Positions 888 through 38,789 of a stretch of 40,554 bases of DNA are shown piece by piece. Location of the stretch: assembly GCA_014534205.1 (NCBI GenBank), contig JACVRX010000002.1:1-40554 (forward strand), read 5' to 3'. The translations under genes were made by a program, and so were the position numbers. The notes under the pieces are model-generated. The model worked only from the letters and a program-made list of their open reading frames with translations. It was not told the origin of the DNA and did not search any database. Every line of letters starts with the position of its first letter. Positions within the stretch are counted from its first letter, which is position 1. Source of the stretch: Jiangellaceae bacterium (lineage in GTDB: Bacteria > Actinomycetota > Actinomycetes > Jiangellales > Jiangellaceae).

Positions 888-1052
888 GGCTGCCGTCCTC
901 TCCGTCGATGTCTGTCGTCGATGCTTCGAGAGTCGTGCTGAGGCCACCCGTGGGACATCGGGTGACCGCGCATGATGAGCCGCGCCGACCACTTATCCCG
1001 ACCGGTGCTCGAGCCGGGCGGCTAAGTGGTCGCGACCTGCCCGGAGCGGTCC

Positions 1053-1129
1053 GGAATGACCCGTACACCATGCCGGTCGGTACCTCACCAGCCCTGCACG
1101 CCTGGATGTACTGACCCGCCTGGTGATGG
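1053..1129 (-). repeat. Diverged copy (copy C) of the ~80-bp palindromic intergenic repeat, inverted orientation
   Basis: Reverse complement CCATCACCAGGCGGGTCAGTACATCCAGGCGTGCAGGGCTGGTGAGGTACCGACCGGCATGGTGTACGGGTCATTCC aligns end to end with 13211-13290 (67 identities in 80 columns, counted by eye). Confidence 0.85.
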
Positions 1130-1317
1130 CAGCGGACCGCACCGCCGCGCCGGCCCCGCTGCGGAGCATTTTCGCAGTCCGCCACCGCTGTGGCACACTG
1201 GCGGCCGTTGCCGGGCTGGATGCGTGCGCCCTGCCGCTGGGGGGTCGAAGCCACGCGGATCTCAGCAGCCGAACCGAACCGCCGACGACCCGCGGCGTCG
1301 ACGAGGAAGTGACCACG

Positions 1318-12392: not shown

Positions 12393-13196
12393 GTGGTGGA
12401 CATGGCGGCGACCGCGCCGGCGTCGCCCGCGAGCCCACCGGCTCGATCGAAGCTGCGGGTGCTGCTGAAGCTCTCCGGTGAGGTGTTCGGCGGTGGCGCC
12501 GTGGGCGTCGATCCCGAGGTTGTGCAGACGATCGCCCGGCAGATCGCGACCGTCGTCAACACTGGGGTGCAAGTCGCCATCGTGGTCGGCGGCGGCAACT
12601 TCTTCCGCGGCGCGGAGCTTCAGCAGCACGGCATGGACCGGGCGCGCGCCGACTACATGGGCATCCTTGGCACCGTGATGAACTGCCTGGCGCTGCAGGA
12701 CTTTCTGGAAAAGGAAGGCGTCGACACCAGGGTGCAGACCGCGATAGCCATGGGCCAGGTGGCCGAGCCCTACATCCCGCGCCGGGCCGCCCGCCACCTC
12801 GAGAAGGGGCGGGTCGTGATGTTCGGCGCGGGCGCCGGGATGCCCTACTTCACGACCGACACGGTTGCCGCCCAGCGCGCCCTGGAGATCGGCTGCGACC
12901 GGCTGCTCATGGCCAAGAGCCGGGTCGACGGCGTGTACGAGGCCGATCCGCACATCGACTCGTCGGCGCGGCGGTTCGTCACGATCACGTACGGCGAGGT
13001 GCTGCGCCGCCGCCTTTCGGTCGCCGACCCGGCGGCCTTCAGCCTGTGCATGGACAACCGGCTGCCGATCGTCGTGTTCGGTCTGGTAGGGGACGGGTCC
13101 ATCGCCCGCGCGATTCGTGGGGATTCGATCGGCACCATGGTGGCAGCCGACGTGCCGACGGTGTTGGTCGACGGGGGTACCCCGAAGCCGGTCTGA
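12393..13196 (+). CDS. pyrH: UMP kinase
   Basis: [14 protein letters not shown]...[13 protein letters not shown]...[20 protein letters not shown]. Confidence 0.97.
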
Positions 13197-13210
13197 GCTA
13201 CCGCCGCTGG

Positions 13211-13290
13211 CCATCACCAGGCCTGTCCGTACATCACCAGGCCTGCAGGCCTGGTGATGTACGGACACGCGTGGTGTACGTGGTCATTCC
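13211..13290 (+). repeat. 80-bp palindromic intergenic repeat, copy A; core is a perfect 44-bp palindrome (13224-13267)
   Basis: TGTCCGTACATCACCAGGCCTGCAGGCCTGGTGATGTACGGACA equals its own reverse complement; 73/80 identical to 28834-28913. Confidence 0.95.
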
Positions 13291-13395
13291 GAAGCGCTCC
13301 GTGCTCTCCCCGCGGAGGGGTCGGCCGGGGTACGGTCGGCTGCAAGCCGACAGCACGCCGGGTAGCGGCCCGGCCTACCTGCCATTGGAGCCACG

Positions 13396-13953
13396 GTGAT
13401 CGACGACACCCTTCTCGAGGCCGAGGAGAAGATGGAGAAGGCGGTGTCCGTCGCCAAGGAGGACTTCACCACCATCCGTACCGGCCGCGCGCACCCGTCG
13501 CTGTTCAACAAGATCCTCGTCGACTACTACGGCGCTCCCACACCGGTGAACCAGCTCGCGTCGTTCCACGTCGCGGATGCCCGGATGATCACCATTCACC
13601 CGTACGACAGGAGCTCGCTTGCGGCGATCGAGCGGGCCATCAGGGACTCCGACCTCGGCGTGAACCCTACGAACGACGGCCAGATCCTGCGCGTGGTCCT
13701 GCCGCAGCTGACCGAGGAACGACGTCGCGAGTACACCCGCCTGGCACGGCACAAGGCGGAGGAAGCCCGCGTCTCGATCCGCAACGTCCGCCGCCACGCC
13801 AAGGACGCCCTGGACAGACTGGCCCGGGACGGCGAGGTCGGAGAAGACGACGTGGTACGCGCGGAGAAGCAGCTCGACGCCCTCACCAGGTCGTACGTCG
13901 AGCAGGTCGACGACCTACTCAAGCACAAGGAAGCCGAGCTGCTCGAGGTGTGA
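13396..13953 (+). CDS. frr: Ribosome recycling factor
   Basis: [56 protein letters not shown]. Confidence 0.97.
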
Positions 13954-19812: not shown

Positions 19813-19967
19813 GGATCACCCGTACCCTGCCTGCCCGTACATGAACGGCCTGCAGGCCCCTTTACGAGCCCTTTACGAGCCCCCCTTTACGAGCCCCTTT
19901 ACGAGCCCCTTTACGAGCGCCCTTTACGAGCCCTTTACGAGCATGGTGATGGGCAGCCTGGTGACGG
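19813..19967 (-). repeat. Probable fourth, interrupted copy (copy D) of the ~80-bp palindromic repeat, split by the TTTACGAG array
   Basis: Reverse strand reads CCGTCACCAGGCTGCCCATCACCA-[array]-GGCCTGCAGGCCGTTCATGTACGGGCAGGCAGGGTACGGGTGATCC, collinear with copy A segments on both sides of the array. Confidence 0.5.
19861..19941 (+). repeat. Short tandem array: 7 copies of TTTACGAG with 11-14-nt period
   Basis: TTTACGAG at 19861, 19872, 19886, 19898, 19910, 19923, 19934, separated by C-rich spacers. Confidence 0.95.
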
Positions 19968-19979
19968 CCGTCGTCCCGG

Positions 19980-28524: not shown

Positions 28525-28833
28525 GAGGCACTGCCGCACCGCAGCGTTCCGCGGCCCGTTGTCTGTTGCCCGAAGGCCGCCGGCTGGCCGCGCTTGGATA
28601 GTTATCCCTGCGGCGACACGCGATGGCGTTGACTATCAACGGCAAGCGGCGCCACATCACCCGGCGCCACATGCCCATCCGCGATTCGGCGCTGCACGTC
28701 CGGGAAATAGCAGCCGCGGCTCTCGTACCCACGCCGTGTCGTGGCCAACTGGCGCCGGGCGGTCGAGCACCGGGCGCGGCAGCTGTCCGGGCCACAGGCC
28801 GGGCCACAGGGACGAGTGCGGCCGCGGCAGCTG

Positions 28834-28913
28834 CCATCACCAGGCCAGTACGTACATCACCAGGCCTGTAGGCCTGGTGATGTACGTGCAGGGGTGGTGT
28901 ACGTGGTCATTCC
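28834..28913 (+). repeat. 80-bp palindromic intergenic repeat, copy B
   Basis: CCATCACCAGGCCAGTACGTACATCACCAGGCCTGTAGGCCTGGTGATGTACGTGCAGGGGTGGTGTACGTGGTCATTCC; 7 differences in 80 from copy A. Confidence 0.95.
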
Positions 28914-28927
28914 AGAACGGTGACCGG

Positions 28928-38579: not shown

Positions 38580-38686
38580 CCCGTGGCGTCCGGAGCGGTC
38601 CCCATCGGGAGGCCGCTTCCTGGCATCGCATCCCACAACTGAACAACGACCACAACCACCATTGAGGTGGCCGAAGGAATGTCGCC

Positions 38687-38744
38687 GGTCCTCGGTAGTG
38701 GCATCCGGGATCCGCCAGGCGCCCGGGTGCTTCCATCGAAGACC
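38687..38744 (+). ncRNA. Candidate Actino-pnp RNA (structured leader of pnp)
   Basis: Outer helix GGTCCTCG/CGAAGACC (one mismatch) enclosing GCATCCGGG/CCCGGGTGC (one G.U), with GTAGTG and TTCCAT internal strands, upstream of pnp; matches the position and type of the Actino-pnp motif. Confidence 0.75.
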
Positions 38745-38789
38745 GAACATCACCGCCGGCCACCCTCGAAACCCGAAGGAGGGTGACCC

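Follow-up and report, generated by a model that had tools for sequence, protein, structure and literature searches.

The window analysed here is a stretch of 40,554 nucleotides from G000, a Jiangellaceae metagenome assembly of 1.66 Mb in 126 contigs (75.6% complete). Its pyrH-frr gap contains a repeat unit made of a half-site, a palindrome and a tail, and three more copies, of decreasing quality, are found in the same window. The features are the following:

1050..1131, - strand: third copy of the repeat, diverged (57.6 bits)
12393..13196, + strand: pyrH, upstream neighbour of the unit, its stop codon 13-14 nt before it; a close homologue exists in 22/22 Jiangellaceae
13210-13290 (about 13209..13292), + strand: type-A repeat unit of 81 nt (half-site, palindrome and tail), 90.4 bits against the family profile
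13211..13223, + strand: half-site CCATCACCAGGCC, a sharp inner boundary of type-A units in the alignment of 59 left ends
13224..13267, no strand: perfect 44-nt palindrome with a 20-bp stem and a TGCA centre; the stem covaries in 52 distinct copies
13268..13290, + strand: tail ending in TACGTGGTCATTCC (reverse complement GGAATGACCACGTA), the outer terminal motif
13396..13953, + strand: frr, downstream neighbour of the unit
about 19824..19969, - strand: fourth copy, degenerate, as two weak fragments (E = 0.1-0.7 each)
28833-28913 (about 28832..28916), + strand: second type-A copy, in a convergent intergenic region, 91% identical to the unit at 13210-13290 (91.8 bits)

The palindrome at 13224-13267, the half-site that precedes it and the tail are all as the first-pass annotation of this DNA had stated. 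The recurrence that it placed near 28834-28913 was confirmed at 28833-28913, and the two further diverged loci that it mentioned are also present (1050-1131 and ca. 19824-19969), the latter weakly (E = 0.1-0.7 for each fragment). The middle of this degenerate copy, in the loop region, is interrupted by a tandem CCCTTTACGAG array (19856-19954). The two ends of the unit are CCATCACC and TCATTCC, and the folding of its strand is far beyond chance, both as RNA (-63.5 kcal/mol, z = -9.6 vs. shuffles) and as DNA (-34.8 kcal/mol, z = -8.7 vs. shuffles). No Rfam model matched it at the gathering level, the weak matches being mostly to microRNA models, as expected of any long hairpin, and a unit whose novelty had at first been left undecided is without a curated Rfam match. 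Searches of plasmids, phages and viral contigs gave no match to the unit. A known cis-regulatory element, the Actino-pnp RNA (RF01688), is found elsewhere in the window (38684-38747, + strand, 61.4 bits).

At the pyrH-frr locus the unit is present in G000 only. It is missing from the corresponding gaps of 20 related Jiangellaceae (that of G003 was unreadable), and the terminal motif was not found in any of these 20 gaps. The gap measures about 199 nt in G000 vs. roughly 60-145 nt to the frr start in the others, and the distance from pyrH to a fixed point inside frr is 220 nt vs. 84-166 nt. Used as a query, the unit matched G000 and 11 or 12 further Jiangellaceae genomes, and none of the genomes of other families searched.

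The four copies belong to a large dispersed family. A profile search (nhmmer) detected 83 copies above 35 bits in 830 kb of G000, far from the few copies to which the family might have been limited, and the 42 copies counted over the 482 kb of contigs C1-C38 (mostly taken in order) would amount to ca. 145 in the 1.66 Mb assembly. The intergenic placement first noticed in the window extends to the genome, with 74 of the 77 placeable copies between genes although 86% of the sequence is coding (gene context and coding fraction were obtained with a simple in-house ORF caller). The asymmetric architecture proposed in the first-pass annotation holds for the 63 type-A copies (half-site, palindrome, tail) and fails for 17 type-B copies with a tail at both ends, 16 of which were recovered by a terminus scan, each spanning 86 nt. 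Lone tails are probably deletion remnants. The tail faces the 3' end of a gene in 34 of 59 type-A copies, at a median distance of 10 nt, and copies are denser (per kb of intergenic sequence) in convergent gaps than in divergent ones.

Pairing in the 20-bp stem reaches 91% over 52 distinct type-A copies, and 36 double changes were counted, whereas shuffles gave at most 18 and a slid control at most 15. Such strong pairing, together with this number of double changes, means that the stem is maintained, through selection or hairpin-templated repair. A structured-RNA role, one half of the original reading, is neither shown nor excluded by the covariation, which is equally expected from a DNA-hairpin function or from hairpin-templated repair. 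The other half, a REP/MITE-like repeat, has gained from the high copy number, the dispersed and intergenic distribution, the presence or absence of the unit at pyrH-frr and the lack of an Rfam match.

The unit also matches the ends of an element of 1.2-1.35 kb that has the terminal motif AATGAYCACGT and carries one gene, to which we refer as AbiEi-Vsr after the predicted domains of its product (see below); the terminal motif of the tail is the motif that bounds these elements. Jiangella has composite elements with these same ends, often of 189 bp, in which the terminal repeat AATGATCACGT, a hairpin and a half-site lead to a short centre, after which the mirror image follows. AATGAYCACGT termini are common to type B, the 189-bp forms and the gene-carrying form, and the last of these would be the autonomous one. 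The G000 gene (contig C4:2676-3635) is located between two units with their tails outward, whose identities to the window unit are 91 and 86%. The first-pass view that no coding gene explains the unit therefore stands within the window and not genome-wide, given this single-copy gene between such units on contig C4. Units within 450 nt on both sides were found for seven of 661 genes in G000, the AbiEi-Vsr gene among them.

Close homologues (>=53% identity) were found in 15 of the 22 Jiangellaceae, exactly one per genome, the copy in G015 being broken (truncated, with a stop). Fourteen of these 15 have inverted units on both sides, with scores of 25-72 vs. at most 14 in shuffles, and the remaining one, in G008, has a unit at one end only. 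The bounding repeats are copies of each genome's own repeat. The gene is found in at least five different neighbourhoods (neighbours were named by eye from translations or sequence): PAC2/mshC in Jiangella and in genus g6, gpmA/phoU-like in G000, an ABC-transporter gene in G001 and G004, and other contexts in G010/G014 and in G015. Between the PAC2-family gene and mshC, the segment enclosed by the ends is 1.2 kb long and has one gene of about 320 codons. This segment is oppositely oriented in the Jiangella genomes G006 and G002 (L210 3410-4660 and L211 3533-4770), as if it had inverted between its own terminal repeats. At these two loci the element has one plausible gene over 1.2-1.35 kb, considering only the bounded segment for an AbiEii partner. 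The element is missing from this position in Jiangella G015, G017, G018 and G021, where a different segment of 420-500 nt lies between the same flanks, which rules out calling those loci simple empty sites. Two G006 loci 133 kb apart (L219 and L220) share both the element and near-identical flanks, indicating that a larger segment was duplicated.

The product of this gene appears to combine two domains. Pfam AbiEi_4 matches 14/14 aligned members (E <= 5), with 31.1 bits for the G000 protein against a cut-off of 25, and 40.2 and 45.2 bits for two others; the PADLOC models also label the protein AbiEi. A search of PDB sequences with the protein profile gave no match. The model of the whole protein (pLDDT 82) resembles the AbiEi antitoxin 6y8q (E = 4e-4), with weaker matches to the I-Bth0305I homing endonuclease and to Vsr. 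When the C-terminal domain was modelled alone (AF2, pLDDT 86), I-Bth0305I and Vsr (3r3p and 1cw0) became the top Foldseek matches, with a probability of 1.00 and modest E-values (0.003-0.02). Residues E206, D240, E251, D253 and K257 (G000 numbering) are invariant, including in the homologues from other families, and the predicted fold together with these catalytic-type residues (E, D, E-x-D, K) fits a Vsr-fold nuclease. From these models we read the protein as an AbiEi-type winged-helix DNA-binding domain fused to a Vsr/homing-endonuclease-like domain, a putative nuclease.

Gene and repeats tend to be found in the same genomes. The 22 Jiangellaceae were searched with units taken from G000, G006 and G001, and at least three matches were found in 14/14 genomes with an intact gene, most of them with dozens, and in three of the eight without an intact close gene (G011 with three, G003 with five and G012 with twelve); the other five had no matches at all. 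These counts are lower bounds, as a part of the candidates was scored, and the two strands of one palindrome count separately. The Fisher test gives p = 0.002 when three matches are required and 0.0004 when ten are, for genomes that are not phylogenetically independent. Among the 14 genomes with an intact gene, the repeats of G001, G004 and G010 differ in sequence and were numerous only when the end of the G001 gene itself was the query. G005 has the gene, yet just three matches. No close gene was detected in G012 or in G003 (81% complete); the repeats of G012 are possibly a remnant population following gene loss.

Of 395 genomes of the class, the Jiangellaceae included, 112 have homologues that a profile search detected. 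Among 15 loci fetched from other families, 13 are flanked on either side by matching units (inverted or direct), with scores above all nulls (25 mismatched pairs, maximum 16.5), and the same flank test applied to pyrH as a control was positive in 0/59 cases (scores <=14.5). Termini of the form TTGAYCACGT recur in several of these families, and in G245 the end unit of the gene is dispersed dozens of times. The G245 gene follows fbaA (L308 1101-1246, judged from the translation), and the conservation of the DNA upstream points to fbaA as the neighbour in some other families too (equivalents in G048, G053 and G070). No tRNA or known RNA was found adjoining the gene in other families.

The actinomycete DnaA box is TTGTCCACA, and a motif that resembles it, YTNTCCACM, lies upstream of the gene, at no more than 260 nt, in 38/43 loci: 14/14 close homologues, 12/15 paralogues and 12/14 wider homologues. 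The controls had it less often (5% of the regions upstream of pyrH, 8% of random windows), a contrast that is partly post hoc as the motif had been noticed in the same sequences before counting. So large a contrast makes chance unlikely. The motif is absent downstream of all 14 close loci. The form YTNTCCACA, often as two sites, precedes nearly all AbiEi-Vsr genes (L230-L259, L302-L316). These DnaA-box-like sites suggest that expression of the gene may be tied to the initiation of replication.

The association between gene and repeats is plain from the repeat family itself, the matching inverted units around the gene, the co-occurrence of both and the several locations of the gene. The best explanation, to which we give a probability of roughly two in three, is that the units are non-autonomous REP/MITE-like repeats dispersed by the AbiEi-Vsr nuclease, an analogue of the RAYT-REPIN system with an unrelated enzyme. 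The unit at pyrH-frr would be a non-autonomous copy of one end of a mobile element of ~1.2-1.35 kb, whose ends would each combine an AATGAYCACGT terminal inverted repeat with a subterminal hairpin. The AbiEi-like domain may recognise the terminal motif or the hairpin, and the Vsr-like domain would nick or cut at the ends, probably with the hairpin single-stranded at the replication fork. Intergenic sites, mostly near gene 3' ends, would then receive copies of the ends and of internally deleted forms (about 80, 86 and 189 bp), while the gene would stay single-copy, like RAYT with REPINs. We infer the DNA cleavage, the mobilisation of the short copies and the coupling to replication. The pattern is RAYT/REPIN-like because a single-copy gene is bounded by a species-specific hairpin unit and dispersed units are found wherever the gene is intact. 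Several observations weigh against this explanation: neither a target-site duplication nor a clean empty site was detected, a different segment occupies PAC2-mshC in genomes without the gene there, G012 and G003 have repeats but no detected close gene, G005 has few matches, G008 has one end only, eight distant paralogues have no flanking repeats above the null, and the E-values for the C-terminal domain are modest.

The strongest of the alternatives, although an improbable one, is that a transposase we have not seen acts in trans and the AbiEi-Vsr gene is a passenger (e.g., a defence or regulatory gene) caught between two repeat ends. Mobilisation by the AbiEi-Vsr protein is an inferred step, PADLOC labels the protein AbiEi, and in an assembly as incomplete as G000 (75.6%) a transposase could be missing. 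A mere passenger would not be expected, however, to be bounded by matching units in 14/15 close and 13/15 other-family homologues when the unit sequences differ, nor to co-occur with the repeats of its own species, and no Y1 transposase was found in the 22 genomes.

Another alternative, to which we give still less weight, is a homing endonuclease that cuts element-free sites into which recombination then copies the element; such a system would use pre-existing cognate sites only, with no true transposition. The nearest solved catalytic fold is indeed that of the homing endonuclease I-Bth0305I, the gene is often at one locus within a genus, and the sequences just outside the termini of the Jiangellaceae relatives are complementary to each other above expectation (0 of 2000 shuffles), as if the target were palindromic. 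This last signal is not significant in G000 (p = 0.57) and for this reason we do not take it as a main argument. Against homing stand the ~145 copies at unrelated intergenic sites of one genome and the five or more neighbourhoods of the gene. As to the insertion sites themselves, direct repeats flanking the elements were not in excess over shuffled pairings (16 and 32 elements), so that no target-site duplication was detected, nor did the relatives examined provide a clean empty site whose flanks could be aligned. Within 40 syntenic Jiangella stretches (<=20 kb), there was no empty/filled pair for the short copies; the only four elements detected there by the terminus search were all gene-carrying.

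We consider it very unlikely that the units are selected cis elements (terminators or mRNA-stabilising hairpins) spread by ordinary duplication, with the link to the gene being secondary. Their proximity to gene 3' ends (34/59 type-A tails, median 10 nt), the greater density in convergent than in divergent gaps and the covarying stem would fit such a role, but REPs in other bacteria are also mostly downstream of genes (PMC3733652), the units have no T-run, the same pyrH-frr site is empty of the unit in 20 related genomes, the repeats are missing from five relatives without an intact gene, and their sequence is species-specific and matches the ends of the gene. Finally, a classical REP/REPIN family moved by a RAYT (Y1 transposase), the kind of enzyme that the first-pass annotation had in mind, would likewise consist of intergenic hairpins in high copy, with inverted doublets, but it can be practically discarded, as Y1_Tnp (PF01797) is absent from 22/22 Jiangellaceae genomes in searches that detected the positive controls, and the ends of the unit are neither GTAG nor CGTC.

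The preferred reading, dispersal by the AbiEi-Vsr protein, can be compared with several known systems. REPs are defined by GTAG or CGTC tags (PMC3733652), and the GTAG-tagged REP/REPIN elements are those found with RAYT (Bertels and Rainey, 2011, PMC3116915; PMC8049555). Our repeats are like them in being short high-copy intergenic hairpins, in singlets and inverted doublets, with the same repeats on both sides of a single-copy gene, and in being commoner in the genomes that hold the gene. They differ in the enzyme, AbiEi-Vsr-like rather than an HUH/Y1 transposase, in the lack of a GTAG tag, and in the length of the unit (about 80 nt), its longer stem and its AATGAYCACGT terminus. Among the CGTC-tagged REPs, families without a dedicated transposase have been found (Di Nocera, 2013, PMC3733652); the present family is also REP-like but has no CGTC tag and does have a candidate enzyme. 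As in IS-derived MITEs, the terminal inverted repeats are shared with a longer gene-carrying element and there are internally deleted short forms; unlike them, there is no known transposase domain, target-site duplications were not seen and the parent element is single-copy. The C-terminal domain is similar in predicted fold to I-Bth0305I and to the Vsr mismatch nicking enzyme, but here it is fused to an AbiEi-type domain, and palindromic ends bound the gene and are dispersed genome-wide. The N-terminal domain is like the AbiEi antitoxin of type IV toxin-antitoxin systems, although unlike the stand-alone antitoxin it is followed by a nuclease-like domain, and the bounded element contains a single gene.

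To our knowledge, only one enzyme family, the RAYT (HUH) transposases, has been proposed as a mobiliser of REP-type repeats, and in the literature within our reach (which leaves out most subscription journals and bioRxiv) no paper that we found connects AbiEi, DUF559 or Vsr proteins with repeats. Here a candidate enzyme of unrelated fold is tied by position and co-occurrence to its own repeat family, and its relatives in many actinomycete families are tied to palindromic units of their own. This suggests that actinomycetes spread REP-like repeats by an enzyme unrelated to RAYT, the only kind known. The wider proposition could go either way: that these elements form a widespread, undescribed class in actinomycetes, in which an AbiEi-Vsr nuclease as the sole enzyme spreads its own terminal palindromes, coupled to replication through the DnaA boxes of its promoter, as a second and independently evolved RAYT-REPIN-like solution. 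If the protein does move the repeats, it would represent a new class of mobile-element enzyme and would give a function to a large group of proteins known to models only as AbiEi antitoxins, and the origin of the enzyme-less REP families would become directly testable.

The Jiangellaceae also have more distant paralogues of the gene. Flanking repeats above the null were not found for eight of the 15 that we looked at, and the other seven have their own units on either side, mostly as direct copies. These seven (L246, L247, L248, L249, L252, L254 and L259) are AbiEi-like, with hairpin units of the GCTTGGTGCGCTG...CAGCGCACCAAGC type, some of which have a GGAAAGCG-like centre. One distant-paralogue unit had 4 to 10 matches in G012 and G010.
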